A stretch of DNA of 64,000 nt. Origin: Syntrophobacterales bacterium (GTDB lineage Bacteria > Desulfobacterota > Syntrophobacteria > Syntrophobacterales > Thermodesulforhabdaceae). The notes beneath the pieces are model-generated. The model saw nothing but the letters and a program-made list of their open reading frames with translations. It made no database searches and had not been told where the DNA came from. Each line of letters starts with the position of its first letter. Position 1 is the stretch's first letter. The translations under genes and the position numbers were made by a program. Shown here in pieces: positions 10,253 through 24,800 of the stretch. The stretch covers positions 1-64,000 of the forward strand of contig JAOACS010000011.1 in the NCBI GenBank assembly GCA_026417655.1, written 5' to 3'.

Positions 10253-11542
10253 ATGACCCAAATAGAAATGGCAAAGAAGGGTATCATTTCAGAAGAGATG
10301 AGAAAGGCCGCCGAAGCCGATAGTATTTCTCCAGAACTCTTAAGAGATCTCATCGCATCGGGGAGGGCTGTTCTACCCAAAAATGTAAATCACAGCTTTG
10401 AAAAGATCTTAGCTATTGGGGAAAAACTTAGGACAAAGGTAAATGCGAACATTGGAAGTAGTGGAGCCTGTGCCTCCGTTGAAAATGAGTTAGCAAAACT
10501 TGAAGCGGCCCTCTCGGCAGGAACCGATTCGGTAATGGATCTATCAACGGGGGGTGATCTAGAAACGATAAGAGCTAAGATATTGGAAAAATCTACTGTA
10601 ATGGTGGGAACCGTTCCCATATACGCTGTTGCAGCACGGCTTAATAGGAATAATGTCCCCATATATAAAATGGATATTGACGAGCTTTTTAAAAGCATTG
10701 AGGATCAGTGCCGTCAAGGGGTGGACTATATAACTGTTCATTGTGGGATTACCCGCGAGACCATTAAAAGAATTGAAGGAAGTAACAGAGTTATACCATC
10801 CGTAAGCCGAGGAGGTTCAATCCTTCTTCAATGGATGAAACATAATAATAAGGAAAATCCGCTATACGAGTATTTTGACGATCTTTTAGAGATCGCCTAT
10901 AGATACGATGTAACTCTAAGCCTTGGGGATGGAATGCGACCTGGAACCATCGTAGATGCTACAGACCGTCCCCAGATAGAAGAGCTTATCTTGCTCGGGG
11001 AACTTGCTAGAAAATCAAGAGAAAAAAATGTACAGGCGATGATTGAAGGGCCAGGGCATGTGCCGCTAGATCAGATTAGTGCAAATGTTTTGCTAGAGAA
11101 AAGGCTCTGCGATGGAGCTCCCTTCTACCTTCTAGGTCCTCTTCCAACGGATATAGCACCAGGCTATGATCATATCACAGCTGCCATAGGTGGGGCTATT
11201 GCTGCAGCAGCAGGGGCCGATTTTCTATGTTATGTAACACCAGCAGAACATCTTGCTCTCCCAACGGCCGAGGATGTTTATGTGGGTGTTGTCGCATCTC
11301 GAATCGCAGGGCATGCGGCCGATATAGTAAAGGGTGTTCCAGGAGCTATTGAAAAGGATCGTCTTATGTCCATCTATCGTCGAGATTTAAACTGGAAAGG
11401 GATGCTTTCCGTGGCCATCGATCCTCAGGAAGCAAGAAAAAGGCTTGCTCTTACTCACGATAGGGAAACCTGCACCATGTGTGGAGAGCTTTGTGCAGTA
11501 AAACTTTCAAGAGGCTTTCTTAAGAAGGATCAAACCAAATAG
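10253..11542 (+). CDS. thiC: Phosphomethylpyrimidine synthase ThiC (short form)
   Basis: Radical-SAM-type enzyme converting aminoimidazole ribotide to HMP-phosphate for thiamine synthesis. Length 429 is that of the short form lacking the N-terminal extension of E. coli ThiC. Visible family motifs: ANIGSSG, DLSTGGD, GTVPIYA, TVHCGIT, SRGGSIL, SLGDGMRPG, EGPGHVPL and GPLPTDIAPGYDHIT. The C-terminal cluster-binding cysteines are Cys407, Cys410 and Cys414 (CTMCGELC), spaced C-x2-C-x3-C, one residue shorter than the C-x2-C-x4-C of the E. coli type. No TPP riboswitch consensus is visible in the 112 bases upstream. The related BzaF (5-hydroxybenzimidazole synthase) is an alternative that motif inspection cannot exclude. 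Confidence 0.87.
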   Translation: MTQIEMAKKGIISEEMRKAAEADSISPELLRDLIASGRAVLPKNVNHSFEKILAIGEKLRTKVNANIGSSGACASVENELAKLEAALSAGTDSVMDLSTGGDLETIRAKILEKSTVMVGTVPIYAVAARLNRNNVPIYKMDIDELFKSIEDQCRQGVDYITVHCGITRETIKRIEGSNRVIPSVSRGGSILLQWMKHNNKENPLYEYFDDLLEIAYRYDVTLSLGDGMRPGTIVDATDRPQIEELILLGELARKSREKNVQAMIEGPGHVPLDQISANVLLEKRLCDGAPFYLLGPLPTDIAPGYDHITAAIGGAIAAAAGADFLCYVTPAEHLALPTAEDVYVGVVASRIAGHAADIVKGVPGAIEKDRLMSIYRRDLNWKGMLSVAIDPQEARKRLALTHDRETCTMCGELCAVKLSRGFLKKDQTK

Positions 11543-11566
11543 AACCGAGGACAACCATAGCCCCCA

Positions 11567-13033
11567 TTATCCTTGATTCCCACTAAGTGGATTTAGAACA
11601 TATCTGGCGCTTCTTCCCTTACCCACCCGGATTATATATCCATGAGAAATCAAGTCATCTAGATCTCTCAAGGCATGGCGGGGAGAGATTTTATTAATTT
11701 CAGAATAGTATTTATTGGTAATGTAACCATGCTTACGTATAAAATCCAATCCCCTTCTCTGCCTTGGCGAAAGCAAGAAAAATGAAGAGTTAGCGATCGG
11801 TAAAGATGGACTACCCTCTTCCTCTAAGTCTTGTGACTCCTCTAGAAACTGGTTATTTTTTCTGCGGACCTCAATGGGTAAGTCCGCTAAGGTAATAACA
11901 TTTCCCGATGAAAGTAAGGTTGCCCTTTCTATCACGTTTTCAAGCTCCCTTACATTCCCTGGCCAATGATATTCCATAAGACACCTCATTGCCTCCTTAT
12001 CCACCCTGAAATCCCTTCCACTTCCCGTTTCTTTGCTATACTTATTTAGAAAGTGCGATACAAGGAGGGGAATGTCCTCAACTCGATGTCTTAAGGGTGG
12101 AAGATGAATATTTACTACATTGAGCCTATAAAAGAGATCTGAGCGAAACCTTCCCAGTTCCACTTCCCTTTTTAAATCACGGTTTGTAGCAGCGATAATC
12201 CGAACATCAACTCGGATTGTCTGAGCCCCACCAACTCTTTCAAACTCCATTTCCTGAATAACCCTTAAAAGTTTTACCTGAAGATGTAAGGGCATTTCGC
12301 TTATTTCATCGAGAAAAAGAGTCCCTTCATGGGCAAGTTCAAAGCGTCCCTTTCTCTGATATAAGGCCCCCGTAAAAGCTCCTCTTTCATGGCCAAAAAG
12401 TTCACTTTCGAGAAGGGTCTCCGGTAGGGCACCACAATTTACAGACACAAAGGGTTTTTCCCTTCTAGGACTCTGATAATGAATAGCCTTAGCTATCAGT
12501 TCCTTCCCTGTTCCGGATTCACCCGTAATAAGAACCGTTGAGCGGGAAGGCGCGATCTTTTCAACTACATAAAAGACCTTTTCCATTGCTTGGCTCTTTC
12601 CAATAATATTTTGGAAAGAATAACGATTCTTAACTTCTTCTTCCAACTCCCGATTACGGCGAAGAAGACGATAATGATCTACTGCTCTAGCTACAATCAC
12701 TTTAAATTCTTCATTTTCAAAGGGCTTACAGATGTAATCAAAGGCCCCTTTTTTCATAGCTTCAACAGCCTTTTCTATAGTTCCATAGGCTGTCATCATA
12801 ATGATAGGGAGATCTGGTTTAAGACGATGAAGGTTATCCAGAAAGGTCATCCCATCAACTCCCGGCATCTTCATGTCAGTTACTACAACGTCGACCTCCC
12901 GTTCAGTAGCTAATTCAAAACCCTCCGATGCATTTTCCGCTGTAAGCACTGTATAACCTTCCTCCGCAAGTAGTTCCTCCAGGATTATAAGATAATTGGG
13001 CTCATCATCCACTATTAACACAGTTGGTGCCAC
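11567..13033 (-). CDS. Sigma-54-dependent NtrC-type response regulator with non-Fis C-terminus
   Basis: Start is GTG. The receiver domain carries Asp53 ([10 protein letters not shown]). The AAA+ domain has Walker A GESGTGKE at 171-178, the sigma-54 contact loop GAFTGA at 218-223 and Walker B GTLFLDEI near 237. After a linker, residues about 420-488 do not show the usual Fis-type helix-turn-helix. They read as a winged helix resembling the C-terminal domain of Fic-family proteins ([46 protein letters not shown]). It should open sigma-54 promoters after phosphorylation. No kinase is adjacent; it is convergent with thiC and divergent from the PAS-like gene at 13282. Confidence 0.9.
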
Positions 13034-19144: not shown

Positions 19145-19729
19145 ATGGAGACCTTTAACAAAATGGCCAAAGATATGGATAAAATCATAGAAAGACTTAT
19201 TGAAGGAAACCATAGATTTTCTAAAGGGGAAGCCCTACGAGCTAATATAAGTGTTTCCCGTCGAAATCAGGTCGCCGACTCACAAAATCCATTCGCCACA
19301 GTCTTTGGGTGTGCAGATTCCAGAGTGCCACCAGAAATAATCTTCGACTGTGGCCTAGGAGATCTTTTTGTAATAAGGACGGCAGGACATACGATGGACA
19401 ATGCTGTTATAGAAACCATCAAGTTCGGTGTTCAATCCCTTAATATTCCCCTTGTTATAGTGCTTGGTCATACGAACTGTGGCGCCCTGTTAAAGGCTAT
19501 CGAGAGTCAAACAAAGGAAGGTAGCATCTCATGGATTGTAGAACAAATAATACCGGCAATAGAACCCTGTAGGGAAGCTACAGAACTGTTAAACTGCGTC
19601 GTAAAGGAACACATAAGAAGGACTACTTCCCAACTGCAAAATATATTAGCCCCCCTTTCAAAAAAGGTTATAATCTTAGGGGCCTGTTACGATCTACACA
19701 CTGGCCTTTTAGAAATCTTAGAGGCATAG
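19145..19729 (+). CDS. Beta-class carbonic anhydrase
   Basis: Reversible hydration of CO2 to bicarbonate in the cytoplasm. Zinc ligands and dyad are all visible: Cys56, Asp58 and Arg60 in GCADSRV, and His109 and Cys112 in LGHTNCGA. Also typical are VIRTAGH and the C-terminal ILGACYDLHTGLLEIL. Length 194 is on the short side of the family but complete. An internal ATG at codon 7 is possible. It has its own promoter candidate, with 62 bases to the following operon. Confidence 0.94.
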   Translation: METFNKMAKDMDKIIERLIEGNHRFSKGEALRANISVSRRNQVADSQNPFATVFGCADSRVPPEIIFDCGLGDLFVIRTAGHTMDNAVIETIKFGVQSLNIPLVIVLGHTNCGALLKAIESQTKEGSISWIVEQIIPAIEPCREATELLNCVVKEHIRRTTSQLQNILAPLSKKVIILGACYDLHTGLLEILEA

Positions 19730-19791: not shown

Positions 19792-20343
19792 ATGGGACTT
19801 TTCGACTGGATACTAGGAAAAAAAGACAAAGAAGCCCAAAAGCCAGCTTTTGATCCTACAAGGGTGCGTCTTCAGGATCTTCAACCGGGATGGTTAGTTG
19901 ACTTTGATCTTAAAACCTGGGAGGTATTGGCGCGACATAGATATGATATGGGCGATGGGTTTGAGATGATCGAGTGGGAACTCAGGGCGGGAAACGACGT
20001 TAGATACCTCTGTCGAGAAGAGGATGATGGCGTATACTGGACCCTTATGAAAAAGGTTCCCCTAGGAGCTATAGCCTCTGGATTAAAAAAACACATTCTC
20101 GAGCATGAAGATCCTCCCTCAAAACTACATTACGAAGGTAGTGACTATGAAATGGTAAGTTACGGAGGAGCAAAATTCTTTAAAGATGGGTCCCCTCCGG
20201 GAATTCCCTTTCTCTACTGGGAATATGAAAGTGTCGATGGAGAAAGGGTAATAACTATAGAGCAGTGGGGTGATACGGAATTTGAAGCCTCAGTCGGGGA
20301 ATATGTGGAGGAGTATCAATTCAGTAATATCCTACCCCGGTAG
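19792..20343 (+). CDS. DUF4178 domain protein
   Basis: Soluble protein of 183 residues, mostly beta strands, built around one DUF4178 domain (DLQPGWLVDFDLKTWEV, a WELRAG strand, YLCREEDDG, then VSYGGAKFF and YWEYES). DUF4178 has no assigned biochemistry but is repeatedly found beside DUF350, spermidine-synthase-like and PspA genes, exactly as here. Preceded by AGGAGG. First gene of a six-gene run to 24800, all on one strand. Confidence 0.85.
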   Translation: MGLFDWILGKKDKEAQKPAFDPTRVRLQDLQPGWLVDFDLKTWEVLARHRYDMGDGFEMIEWELRAGNDVRYLCREEDDGVYWTLMKKVPLGAIASGLKKHILEHEDPPSKLHYEGSDYEMVSYGGAKFFKDGSPPGIPFLYWEYESVDGERVITIEQWGDTEFEASVGEYVEEYQFSNILPR

Positions 20344-20352
20344 TATTAGCTG

Positions 20353-21153
20353 GTGAGAGAGACTGTGCCTTCAACGGAAAAAACCCTTTCTATTGGTCTT
20401 ACGTGTTTAGTGCTATTTACCGGGATCTTTATGGCGGGATGTAGTAGCTCCCCCCAAGATCCCTTAGAAAAACTTAAAAAAGAACTATCTCCCTATTCTG
20501 AATACTCTGTTATTCTTACCGACATGCGGGAAGAGGGTCTCCTATTTTCTAACTATTATCATATTTATCGGATTATTTATCTCGATCGAGATCCAAAGGA
20601 GGGAGAGCCTATTCTAAGAGAAAAAATAACCTCCTGGTATCCGGTCAGTAAGGCCTTTTATGAAAAATACAAACCCTGCCTTGGAATGACAATCTTTGCG
20701 AAGGAGAAGGACGGTACCATTACAGATGTCCCCCATCCCCCTGCATACCAGTTCATTGGTGACACAAGATTCGGCCAATGGAAAACCGATGAAAAGGGTA
20801 ATCAGATCTGGGAATGGATTGGAAAGTATTACGTGATTTCGTCAATTCTCGATCTTCTTGGTGACCATCGGAGAATATCCTACGAAGACTGGCACAATTA
20901 CAGAACCAGCATGCAGAAAAGAAAGCCCTACTTCGGCCCCCAGGATGAGTCAAAAAATCCAACCTTCGGCACAGGGGGAAGTTGGACCCAAAAAAAATTT
21001 CCTACCTTTTTCGAACGCCAACAGGCTCGGATGGCAGCTAAAAAAGCCAGTTTTGAACAGAGGGTTTCCCAAAGCATGGGCAAAACCAAAACATCAACCT
21101 TTACTTCCAGAACAGGCGGAAGTAGTTTCGGGGGGCGTTCAGGCGGCAAGTAA
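20353..21153 (+). CDS. Lipoprotein with Gly/Ser-rich tail
   Basis: Signal peptide with lipobox FMAGC (Cys30), so lipid-anchored. The mature part is a folded domain to about residue 195 with many aromatic residues (SNYYHIYRIIYLDRD, WIGKYYVISSILDLL), then a basic segment and a tail rich in Gly, Ser and Thr (TGGSSFGGRSGG). The tail recalls the E. coli YgiB/YjfM (DUF1190) lipoproteins, which sit in a comparable gene set, but the folded part is not obviously the same family. The start is GTG at 20353; a second GTG at 20365 is equally plausible. Lies 9 bases after the DUF4178 gene. Confidence 0.7.
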   Translation: MRETVPSTEKTLSIGLTCLVLFTGIFMAGCSSSPQDPLEKLKKELSPYSEYSVILTDMREEGLLFSNYYHIYRIIYLDRDPKEGEPILREKITSWYPVSKAFYEKYKPCLGMTIFAKEKDGTITDVPHPPAYQFIGDTRFGQWKTDEKGNQIWEWIGKYYVISSILDLLGDHRRISYEDWHNYRTSMQKRKPYFGPQDESKNPTFGTGGSWTQKKFPTFFERQQARMAAKKASFEQRVSQSMGKTKTSTFTSRTGGSSFGGRSGGK

Positions 21154-21191
21154 TTTATAAGGGTAACCAAGTTTTGAAGGAGTAGGCCACC

Positions 21192-22058
21192 ATGGACAAT
21201 ATGCTCATTTCTGCAGCTAAATGGGTGGGTGCAGTTATTGGGTTCTTCGTTGGATCAGTCATTTTACTAAGTATGGGGCGAGCGGTCTTCACCCTTATGT
21301 ATCCTCGCTGTAACGTGAAAGAAGAACTTGTCGATAAAGATAATCCTGCGATGGCTATTGTTTTTGGAGGTTATGTGTTAGGCATAGCGCTTGCCATTGG
21401 GGGGTCCCTTGTAGGGCCAAGCCTTACGGTTAGGCTGGCCTTCTATGATCTCCTTATTTACGGTCCTCTTGGAATTGGACTAATGTTTTGTTCCCATCTG
21501 ATCGCAAAAAAAATAATTCTTCACCCCTTTGATATGACAAAGGAGATCGTTGAGGATCGAAACTGTGGAACCGGTATAATTATAGCAGCTAACCATATAG
21601 CTATGGGGCTCATAGTCTATGGAGCTATAGCTGGTGAAGGTAATATCTTTACGGCCTTTGTCTTTTGGTTTCTTGGCCAGCTCGCTTTGGTTATAGCCAC
21701 GCTGTTTTATCGTAGGATCCTCCCCTTCGATCTCCATCAAGAAGTTGAAAGGGACAACGTAGCCGTGGGCATAGCCTTTGCCGGAGTTTTAATTGCAACG
21801 GGAAATATTGTCCGTTTTGCCATTCAGGGAAATTTCCTATCCTGGGAAAGAGATCTCCTGTTTTTCGCTCTCGTTATGGGGCTAGGTGTAATCTTTATGC
21901 CTATTGCAAGAATGTTAGTCGAAAAGGTTATGTTAAGCGGCCGAAAATTGATGGATGAACTTGTAAGACAGGACAAGCCTAATATTGGAGCAGCTATCAT
22001 TGAGGCCATGATTTATGTGGCTCTTTCCTTCCTTGTGGGCTGGAGTGTTTCTATATGA
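21192..22058 (+). CDS. DUF350 (YjfL-like) integral membrane protein
   Basis: 288 residues with two DUF350 units, each of about four membrane helices, joined by charged loops (MYPRCNVKEELVDKDNPAMAI in unit 1; DLHQEVERDNVAVGIAF in unit 2). DUF350 members are small helical-bundle membrane proteins of unknown transport or stress role. The last 4 bases overlap the start of the next gene (ATGA), so the two are translated together. Confidence 0.85.
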   Translation: MDNMLISAAKWVGAVIGFFVGSVILLSMGRAVFTLMYPRCNVKEELVDKDNPAMAIVFGGYVLGIALAIGGSLVGPSLTVRLAFYDLLIYGPLGIGLMFCSHLIAKKIILHPFDMTKEIVEDRNCGTGIIIAANHIAMGLIVYGAIAGEGNIFTAFVFWFLGQLALVIATLFYRRILPFDLHQEVERDNVAVGIAFAGVLIATGNIVRFAIQGNFLSWERDLLFFALVMGLGVIFMPIARMLVEKVMLSGRKLMDELVRQDKPNIGAAIIEAMIYVALSFLVGWSVSI

Positions 22059-23647
22059 GAAGAGGGAGCCTGCTAGAGAAGACAGGCTCAGCGATTTTTA
22101 AGTTTTTTGCTAACACATTACTTACTCCTTCCAGCATAATAAAACTTTCGGTCTTCGTTGCTGGCTTTTCGGGTATCCTCATTGAATACGTCATTTCTAC
22201 AGTAGCCTCCTACCTTATAGGGAATACCCTGTTCCAATGGGCTATAATAATTAGTCTTTTTCTCTTCGCGATGGGGTTAGGAAGTCGGGTAACGGGTCAC
22301 ATTAAAAATGACGAAGCTAATTACTTCATCCTCGTGGAATCTCTGATTACTATCACAGTAGCTATATTTCTTCCCACAGCCTATGCTGCTGTAGCTTACC
22401 CTGTTATCCTCCATCTAGTTTTATACGGAGCCACGCTTACTACCGGAGTTTTAATAGGTATGGAAATCCCATTACTCATAAGGCTTAATAGTAGGTTTGA
22501 GGAACTACCAAGGAACTTGAGTCGTTTGCTAGAAAAGGACTATATGGGCGCACTCTTTGGCGGTCTCTTCTTTGCTTTCGTTGGTCTTTCCTTCTTTGGG
22601 CCTCTTACTCTGGGACTTATGGTGGCAACCCTTAACTGGCTAATAGCTCTAATTTGCTGGCTGTCCTTTAGGCAGGTTTTGAAAAGAGCCTTTATCGCCG
22701 TGATAGCCTTGGCTGGCATCATTACCTTTGCCTCCTTCCCCCTGGGAAATGCCTTAGCCTCATGGGGAGAAGAGCAAAAATATAGGGACGAAATAATCTA
22801 CTCTGAACAGAGCCCCTATCAGCGCATTGTGATGACCAAATGGCGACAATTCTTTTGGCTCTATCTGGACGGCCATCTACAGTTTTCTAGCTACGATGAA
22901 TATCGTTACCATGAGACTCTTGTGCACCCGGCCATGATGGGAGCGACATCCCGCTCCCATGTTCTAATTCTTGGAGGAGGTGATGGGCTTGGAGCTAGAG
23001 AGGTTCTGAAATACCCAGATGTAGAAAGCATAACCATTGTTGATATTGACCCGGCAATAACTAGACTAGCCAAAAATCATCCTCTTCTTGTAGACCTAAA
23101 CGATAGCGCCCTTAATAATCCAAAGGTTAAAGTGATAAATGAAGATGCGGGAGTCTTTCTAGAAAAGAGCTCTCACCTATGGAATGTAATTATTGTGGAT
23201 CTTCCGGATCCAAGGACTCCTACCCTTGAAAGACTCTATTCTGTGGAGTTTTATCGAACATGTAAAAATCGCCTTGCCAAAGGAGGAGTGATAGTAACTC
23301 AGGCTACCAGCCCTATCTTTAGTCCCCATGCCTTTTGGTGTATTGCAAAGAGTGTAAACGCCTCGGGATTACATGCGATCCCCATACATGCCTATATTCC
23401 TACCTTCGGAGACTGGGGCTGGGTAATAGGGTCTGAATTTCCCGTAGAAATATTCCGATCTAGACTCGAAAAGGTGTGGACTGAAGCATCGCTTCCGTTA
23501 AAATTTTTAAATCTTGAAGTCCTTAAAACATTGTTTGTTTTCAGTCCTGCTGATAGAATAGATTTCCAGGCGGTTGAGGTGAATTCATTTTTTAAACCGG
23601 TCCTATACCGGTATTATAAACAAGGGATTTGGTCATTAGATCAATAA
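22055..23647 (+). CDS. Membrane-bound spermidine-synthase-like aminopropyltransferase
   Basis: N-terminal half (about 1-235) has six or seven membrane helices; the C-terminal half is a polyamine-synthase Rossmann domain with GGGDG near residue 307, the acidic ribose-binding VDIDP, EDAGVF, and DLPDPRTPTLERLYS in the active-site loop. In soluble spermidine synthases this loop reads DSTDP; DLPDP is usual in the membrane-anchored subgroup, whose substrate is not established. No AdoMet decarboxylase lies in the window, so the aminopropyl donor must come from elsewhere or the reaction differs. Coupled to the DUF350 gene. Confidence 0.85.
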   Translation: MRRGSLLEKTGSAIFKFFANTLLTPSSIIKLSVFVAGFSGILIEYVISTVASYLIGNTLFQWAIIISLFLFAMGLGSRVTGHIKNDEANYFILVESLITITVAIFLPTAYAAVAYPVILHLVLYGATLTTGVLIGMEIPLLIRLNSRFEELPRNLSRLLEKDYMGALFGGLFFAFVGLSFFGPLTLGLMVATLNWLIALICWLSFRQVLKRAFIAVIALAGIITFASFPLGNALASWGEEQKYRDEIIYSEQSPYQRIVMTKWRQFFWLYLDGHLQFSSYDEYRYHETLVHPAMMGATSRSHVLILGGGDGLGAREVLKYPDVESITIVDIDPAITRLAKNHPLLVDLNDSALNNPKVKVINEDAGVFLEKSSHLWNVIIVDLPDPRTPTLERLYSVEFYRTCKNRLAKGGVIVTQATSPIFSPHAFWCIAKSVNASGLHAIPIHAYIPTFGDWGWVIGSEFPVEIFRSRLEKVWTEASLPLKFLNLEVLKTLFVFSPADRIDFQAVEVNSFFKPVLYRYYKQGIWSLDQ

Positions 23648-23679
23648 CCTTTAGTTTTCCTCAAAAAGGAGGTTTCCAG

Positions 23680-24078
23680 ATGAGTGAATATTTCCAAAAG
23701 GTAAAGTCATACCTTTTGAACTTGGACGTCGAAATAGTAAAGGAGGACCCTCAAGAAGGGCTTTTCGTAGTTAAAAACGAAGATCGAGGACTAGTAAACC
23801 TAGTGGTAGACTGTGAAGATCCCATTCTTATTATTGAACAGCTAATCATGGCTGTTCCTGACAAAAACAGGGAAGAATTTTTTAAACGGCTTCTTCAAAT
23901 GAATCGGGCTCTTATTCATGGGGCCTTTGTTGTGGACGAAGAATCTAAAAATGTCATATTTAGGGATACTCTTCAGCTAAGAAATCTTGATTATAACGAA
24001 CTTGAAGCATCCATATTGGCTCTTGAGATGGCACTTCTCGAATACGGTGATGAATTGATTAAGTTTACTAAGGCTTAA
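23680..24078 (+). CDS. YbjN/YjfI-like small cytoplasmic protein
   Basis: 132 residues, acidic, alpha/beta. The opening strand-helix pattern and LLQMNRALIHGAFVVDEE are typical of the YbjN/type III chaperone-like fold; E. coli YjfI, which neighbours the PspA paralogue YjfJ, is the closest contextual analogue. The start at 23680 is preferred over an ATG at 23629 because AAGGAGG lies 7 bases upstream. It likely works with the PspA protein encoded 14 bases downstream. Confidence 0.72.
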   Translation: MSEYFQKVKSYLLNLDVEIVKEDPQEGLFVVKNEDRGLVNLVVDCEDPILIIEQLIMAVPDKNREEFFKRLLQMNRALIHGAFVVDEESKNVIFRDTLQLRNLDYNELEASILALEMALLEYGDELIKFTKA

Positions 24079-24092
24079 AAGGGAGGGTAAAA

Positions 24093-24800
24093 ATGGCAGG
24101 GATTTTACAAAGACTTTTTAAAATAGGTCAGGCCGAGGCTCATGCAATAGTAAATAAGCTCGAAGATCCCATAAAGCTTACAGAACAGGGCATCCGTGAC
24201 TTGAAAAGGGATCTTACAACAGCTATGGAGAGCCTTGCAGAGGTCAAGGCTTTAGCGATTCGCCTCAGACGTCAAATGGAAGATTTCCAAAGGGCCGCAG
24301 CCGATTATGAAAAGAAAGCCCTTCTTATCCTAGAGAAGGCAAAGCGAGGAGAGATGGACCTACAAGAAGCCGAGAGGCTTGCTCTAGAAGCTTTAGGCCG
24401 AAAACAGGAAAACGAAGAGCGCGCAAAACAGCTTCAGGTGGATTGCCAGACCCAGGAGTCCATGGCCGCTCAACTCCAGGTAAAAATTGAACAACTCAAG
24501 AAGCAAATAAGCTCCTATGAGAACGAACTGATTACTCTGAAAGCACGAGCCAAGACGGCCGAATCGATGAAGAAGATCAATAAACAACTTGCTCAGGTAG
24601 ACTCATCAAGCACTATCGCCATGCTGGAACGGATGAAGCAAAAGGTCAGAGAGGAAGAATCTCTTGCCGAAGCCTATGGAGCCGTAGTAGCAGATACTTC
24701 CTCTGTGGACGCTAAATTAGAAAAAGCCCTTGCAGCTCCTTCTTCCCCAGCTGTCTCCGATGCCCTAGCTGAGTTGAAGAGAAAGGCTGGTCTGCTGTGA
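24093..24800 (+). CDS. pspA: PspA/IM30 family membrane-stress protein
   Basis: 235 residues, almost entirely helical coiled coil, opening with the family pattern MAGILQRLFKIGQAEAHAIVNKLEDP and heptads through about residue 200; a helical tail ends in DALAELKRKAGLL. PspA proteins form ESCRT-III-like rods that bind and repair the inner membrane. The usual partners PspF, PspB and PspC are absent. Instead it closes a DUF4178/lipoprotein/DUF350/aminopropyltransferase/YbjN operon, like E. coli YjfJ in the yjf cluster. Confidence 0.9.
   Translation: MAGILQRLFKIGQAEAHAIVNKLEDPIKLTEQGIRDLKRDLTTAMESLAEVKALAIRLRRQMEDFQRAAADYEKKALLILEKAKRGEMDLQEAERLALEALGRKQENEERAKQLQVDCQTQESMAAQLQVKIEQLKKQISSYENELITLKARAKTAESMKKINKQLAQVDSSSTIAMLERMKQKVREEESLAEAYGAVVADTSSVDAKLEKALAAPSSPAVSDALAELKRKAGLL

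Follow-up and report, generated by a model that had tools for sequence, protein, structure and literature searches.

The DNA analysed here (the window) comprises 64,000 nucleotides, namely positions 1 to 64,000 of the forward strand of contig JAOACS010000011.1 of a Syntrophobacterales bacterium. It harbours an operon of six open reading frames (ORFs), all on the + strand, which encode a DUF4178 protein, an exported lipoprotein, a duplicated DUF350 membrane protein, a spermidine synthase (SpdS) fused to a membrane domain (designated mSpdS) and, as adjacent genes, a CesT/Tir-like protein and PspA (Table 1). The spacing between consecutive ORFs amounts to 9, 38, -4, 26 and 14 bases. The last residues of the lipoprotein are Gly-Gly-Lys, and it is the lysine at its extreme end, together with its tie to the synthase, which had been overlooked in a first-pass annotation of the window. 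The terminal lysine of the exported partner and its covariation with mSpdS are the new observations reported here.

A C-terminal lysine, usually as Gly-Lys (GK), is present on the exported partner in all 51 mSpdS-containing genomes or records in which this partner was located. These comprise 24 Desulfobacterota (including Desulfothermus), seven plasmids or chromids (Alphaproteobacteria, Burkholderia, Alteromonas and Gemmatirosa) and 20 Bacillota, while G264 and G415, both represented by short contigs, and a Rhodovulum fragment were left unscored. Genomes were sampled, not exhaustively, and since a pattern scan of genome contigs based on the first alignment had provided five loci only, the wider sampling was centred on other phyla. 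For 39 of the 51 partners the identification was made without reference to the tail, i.e. from homology, from annotation or simply from the position of the ORF, and each of these 39 is lysine-terminal. Comparison by BLASTP of the partner bodies devoid of their tails yields 12 clusters, which reduce to about ten types upon merging by visible motifs; DUF4247, the family of the window lipoprotein and signal-anchored peptides of 47-60 residues are among them. The background frequencies in nearby ORFs are 8.5% for a C-terminal lysine and 1.5% for GK, and the probability of ten independent partner types all being lysine-terminal by chance is about 2e-11. The correlation of the terminal lysine with mSpdS is established; the chemistry which it may reflect is what we infer from it.

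Two groups of relatives serve as natural controls. DUF4247 proteins encoded beside mSpdS in Bacillota genomes invariably end in GK (20/20), and in none of these 20 is a second basic residue found within the last four positions. In contrast, 44 of 45 DUF4247 copies from loci without mSpdS lack the GK end, and 43 of the 45 carry at least two basic residues (K/R) among the last four. The sole GK copy of this set (L223) is the additional copy of a genome, G810, which contains mSpdS at another locus. The tails of the mSpdS-lacking clade, which spans about 40 genomes, end in KRR or RRR. A whole-genome search of 30 mSpdS-lacking genomes returned matches solely in the soluble-type catalytic region for 29 of them and none at E<=1e-15 for the remaining one. 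In a tree of DUF4247 the copies without mSpdS group within a single nested clade, GK being kept elsewhere through deep divergence. At L178 (6144-8215) and L188 (5864-7957), both devoid of mSpdS, a gene which by eye resembles YidC/Oxa1-type insertases lies between two DUF4247 genes whose products have polybasic tails. The second control is provided by the exported partners of YgiC/YjfC-type ligases. Ten out of 14, including E. coli YgiB and YjfM, end in GG and the others in GS, GS, CG and HA; a terminal lysine does not occur (0/14). Because the DUF1190 family is rare among Desulfobacterota (1 genome in 297), these tails were drawn from plasmid records and from E. coli; a DUF1190 search of the window genome (G000) gave no match. 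YgiC and YjfC are named peptide-spermidine ligases in RefSeq, after Pederick et al. (2023), where enzymes of this type are reported as such.

mSpdS consists of a seven-helix membrane part (residues ~25-235) and an aminopropyltransferase part (~245-500). In its AlphaFold2 (AF2) model (predicted local distance difference test, pLDDT, 89) the catalytic domain matches TthSpeE, the triamine/agmatine aminopropyltransferase of Thermus, as well as thermospermine synthase, and a sequence search points to the same aminopropyltransferases; some of these PDB relatives accept longer amines. Across 51 homologues the glycine motif reads GGGDG in 49 and GAGDG in two cases, and the catalytic aspartates including D382xxD385, Q276 and the DExxYHE frame are kept in all of them. 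With its catalytic residues intact, mSpdS is predicted to be an active aminopropyltransferase. Averaged hydropathy displays seven peaks ahead of the catalytic domain. The mean number of Lys plus Arg per loop is 2.3, 3.7 and 3.5 in loops 2, 4 and 6 versus 0.5, 0.3 and 1.1 in loops 1, 3 and 5, an asymmetry whose sense is the same in 51/51 homologues. Application of the positive-inside rule to this seven-helix charge pattern predicts an inside location for the N-terminus and an outside location for the catalytic domain. Two nearly invariant glutamates lie within the membrane domain. A phage origin of mSpdS was considered and rejected, as the homologue at L069 has no match in phage records.

Table 1. 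Features of the mSpdS operon, in window coordinates.
Feature	Position	Strand	Evidence
DUF4178 protein, predicted cytosolic, beta-rich	19792-20343	+	Pfam PF13785, 4e-26; kept in related operons
Exported lipoprotein, proposed acceptor	20353-21153	+	GTG start; lipobox FMAGC, Cys30 codon 20440-20442
Lipoprotein C-terminal tail TSRTGGSSFGGRSGGK, Gly/Ser/Arg-rich	21103-21150	+	Terminal Lys266, codon AAG 21148-21150
DUF350 duplication, polytopic membrane protein, eight-transmembrane (8TM) class	21192-22058	+	Pfam PF03994, two stretches, 3e-50
mSpdS, predicted membrane aminopropyltransferase	22055-23647	+	Spermine_synth, 7e-38; NF002956, 543 bits (cut-off 472)
CesT/Tir-like protein	23674-24078	+	CesT_Tir_1 PF22550, 9e-50; YbjN only 6e-09
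PspA/IM30 membrane-scaffold protein	24093-24800	+	PspA_IM30 PF04012, 2e-44

The ORF coordinates, family matches and hydropathy peaks bear out most of what the first-pass annotation had described at this locus, i.e. six same-strand genes with short gaps and one 4-base overlap, a lipobox, a DUF350 duplication, a GGGDG aminopropyltransferase with a membrane domain and a PspA gene. The gene it had called YbjN-like is better placed in the CesT_Tir_1 family; its start was set at ATG 23674, not at TTG 23629. A Pfam search assigns the lipoprotein to no family, while homologues of it are found at L023, L025, L027, L060-L062, L082, L142 and L144. Some DUF4178 copies in related operons carry a zinc ribbon. 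The DUF350 protein, whose unsolved membrane fold is common to most of these operons, is modelled by AF2 with a pLDDT of 88.5 and a predicted template modelling score of 0.89, yet comparison with PDB folds gives no match at E<=0.001 and hence no functional hint. ORFs for PspF, PspB or PspC were not seen within 17.5-27.5 kb of the window, a genome-wide search not having been made, and a YjfC-type ATP-grasp ligase is absent among the ORFs of 19-25 kb. Scans for promoters and terminators yielded chance level only. The era gene lies 45 bases downstream of the operon, which it also follows in the same-genus genome G001. A beta-carbonic anhydrase gene (19145-19729, same strand) ends 62 bases upstream; as it is not found in front of the operon in G001, it is probably not part of the system. 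Named relatives assign the window genome to the Desulfobacterota, the Desulfacinum hydrothermale locus L032 (genome G007) being from the same order.

The families of this operon recur together in Desulfobacterota, Bacillota, Pseudomonadota and Gemmatimonadota, and their co-occurrence, which had been suggested as a check, is not due to chance. Layout I reads DUF4178-lipoprotein-DUF350-mSpdS-CesT-PspA, optionally with a K+ channel ahead of PspA (window; L023; L027 with the channel; L060 and L062 in rearranged order). In layout II the order is mSpdS-signal-anchored protein-DUF350-unknown-K+ channel-CesT-PspA (L068-L070 and L074; others truncated), the protein between DUF350 and the channel (L069, 4892-5572, - strand; relatives at L068 and L071) having about 220 residues and no Pfam match. 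Layout III, whole or in part at L066, L081 and L084, runs DUF4178-DUF4178-short exported protein-DUF350-mSpdS-amine oxidase family-speD, optionally preceded by SPFH. The amine-oxidase-family proteins adjoining mSpdS (L066, 6265-7926, - strand; L084, 9442-11058, + strand) possess signals of the twin-arginine translocation (Tat) type, one of them with a lipobox, which suggests extracytoplasmic amine chemistry. An Alteromonas plasmid (L082) provides layout IV, mSpdS-speD-hypothetical-TelA-DUF4178-lipoprotein-DUF350. Its toxic anion resistance protein TelA (10542-11648) sits where other layouts have PspA or SPFH, and the three appear to fill one slot. A tblastn search of plasmids for DUF4178 gave no match. 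Layout V, DUF4178-PspA-DUF4247-DUF350-mSpdS with an optional K+ channel, is that of the Bacillota (L103-L111; L104 and L105 also contain DUF2617).

Contrary to its initial listing as a candidate for an undescribed system, the gene set of the window is a member of a class published by Ravi et al. (2024; PMC11237479). The second group of CesT/Tir-PspA operons in that study contains a spermidine synthase fused to seven transmembrane helices (7TM), an 8TM DUF350 protein, a lipoprotein and DUF4178. All of these are encoded in the window, where the lipoprotein is a putative counterpart of the Ctha_1186 domain of that group. Its authors leave the function open and suggest a role in sensing polyamines or in aminopropylating other substrates; the main text mentions neither lysine nor the lipoprotein C-terminus. 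The same authors list a DUF4247-DUF2617-DUF350-SpeE variant (M. tuberculosis accessions CCP45395/CCP45394), which, as listed, shares DUF350 and the exported DUF4247 partner with the operons described here; in the Bacillota relatives with DUF2617 (L104 and L105) the DUF4247 tail is GK. For Actinobacteria, M. tuberculosis among them, and for Shewanella a lysine end is a prediction. The proposed kinship with the E. coli yjf cluster is supported. yjfIJKLMC, like the window, encodes PspA, a CesT-like protein and DUF350 as well as an exported partner whose tail is rich in Gly, and in both yjfIJKLMC and ygiBC a polyamine enzyme is encoded beside such a partner. This enzyme, however, is an ATP-grasp ligase in place of mSpdS, and the DUF1190 partner ends in GG, not GK. 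The earlier view of the operon as a reduced yjf version is not supported. The ligase is absent from it, but the S-adenosylmethionine (AdoMet) decarboxylase described as missing is encoded by two speD genes elsewhere in the genome. With speD present twice and the mSpdS type forming a separate, widespread layout, this view was rejected. Since lipoprotein tails end in GG in the presence of the ligase and in GK in that of the membrane synthase, another route seems to have taken the place of the ligase. A modification of protein lysine by a polyamine fragment is established for eIF5A, where deoxyhypusine synthase transfers an aminobutyl group from spermidine to an internal lysine in the cytosol; mSpdS would share this idea, the enzymes being unrelated.

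On these comparative grounds we give an even chance to mSpdS aminopropylating the C-terminal lysine of the lipoprotein from decarboxylated AdoMet and thereby building a polyamine tip. The donor would be made by SpeD, encoded outside the operon, and mSpdS would move one or more aminopropyl groups onto the side-chain amine of the lysine which, as a four-carbon primary amine, may mimic putrescine. The Gly-rich stretch ahead of the lysine would let the tip reach the active site, with both the catalytic domain and the lipoprotein tail exposed outside the cytoplasm. This arrangement would require passage of the donor across the membrane, perhaps via the mSpdS membrane domain with its two glutamates. 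DUF350, DUF4178, the CesT-like protein and PspA (or SPFH/TelA) would constitute a membrane and cytosolic complex that puts the polycationic tip to use, e.g. in holding or stabilising the membrane or in gating the K+ channel of those versions which have one. We infer the transfer reaction, its membrane side, the donor passage and the downstream use alike, and a role of the tip in membrane permeability or integrity is a guess from the recurrence of K+ channels, DUF350 and scaffolds of the PspA type. In its broader form the proposal is a new protein modification, in which an outside-facing membrane aminopropyltransferase turns the lipoprotein C-terminal lysine into a polyamine, as one of three interchangeable routes to such a tip (lysine plus aminopropyl, GG plus spermidine via the ligase, and encoded KRR/RRR); this we put forward tentatively, at somewhat below an even chance. 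The open-licence literature yielded no report of protein C-termini being aminopropylated.

Several points weigh against this proposal, all support for which is comparative. The DUF4247 contrast represents a single evolutionary loss, as the copies without mSpdS sit in one nested clade. The selection of twelve short partners relied in part on inspection of the gap beside DUF350, and the lipoprotein gene of G002 and that of G004 are unlinked to mSpdS, the tails still being GK. Secondary structure assignment of the AF2 model by DSSP shows no break between helices 5 and 6 (a single run, 151-204); with six crossings instead of seven the catalytic domain would lie inside. Activity in the cytosol, ahead of export, is presumed for the ATP-grasp ligases and is conceivable for mSpdS, too. 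Five mSpdS genomes (G259, G344, G100, G474 and G710) lack a PF02675 speD (class 1 AdoMet decarboxylase), which leaves their donor unexplained, and we know of no precedent for the extracytoplasmic use of an AdoMet-derived donor.

The strongest alternative, although an unlikely one in our estimation, is that mSpdS produces a free small polyamine such as spermidine or thermospermine at the membrane, the lysine tail acting as a pseudo-substrate or docking peptide which regulates the enzyme or senses substrate. The intact active site and the closeness of the catalytic domain to ordinary polyamine synthases fit this view, and a lysine tip fitting the acceptor pocket would be selected even if it merely binds. 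A second synthase appears unneeded, however, as 27 of 32 mSpdS genomes possess a PF02675 speD, most of them plus a soluble SpdS; the window genome itself contains two further soluble-type SpdS matches in addition to its speD genes. By analogy, the pairing of ligase and GG favours covalent attachment, and such a fusion reportedly failed to complement an E. coli speE mutant (Li et al., 2019). The five genomes without speD have no soluble SpdS at E<=1e-25 either. Two of them, G710 and G474, carry within the mSpdS operon (L104, 9591-11866; L105, 6300-10108) DUF2617, which might provide the donor step or stand in for it.

That the lysine tail is modified in the cytosol ahead of export, with the catalytic domain inside, would parallel the ATP-dependent YgiC/YjfC enzymes and dispense with transport of decarboxylated AdoMet. 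The uniform loop charge pattern, the Tat-type signal of the amine-oxidase partner and the short signal-anchored peptides among the partners render it improbable. Less probable still is a lipid head group, e.g. that of phosphatidylethanolamine, as the aminopropyl acceptor, with the lipoprotein carrying or binding the product. The synthase is embedded in the membrane and accompanied by PspA and DUF350, but a lipid target leaves unexplained why a single terminal lysine is lost along with the synthase, and the operons contain no known lipid-headgroup enzyme family. Of the original suggestion of a polyamine-type group attached to lipid or protein at the membrane surface, the data favour the protein part, the lipid target being unsupported. 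Finally, a Gly-Lys end which signals sorting, amidation or cross-linking and has nothing to do with the synthase chemistry, its covariation reflecting operon ancestry only, would suit neighbouring genes of common history with low-complexity tails but is very improbable given the same end in about ten non-homologous partner types over four phyla and its absence with ligases.

The terminal lysine narrows the search for what membrane-fused spermidine synthases act on to one residue in one protein. If aminopropylation of this lysine holds true, it would constitute a new lysine modification and tie a PspA envelope system to polyamine chemistry. mSpdS, the YgiC/YjfC ligases and the versions with polybasic tails would then serve one common purpose.

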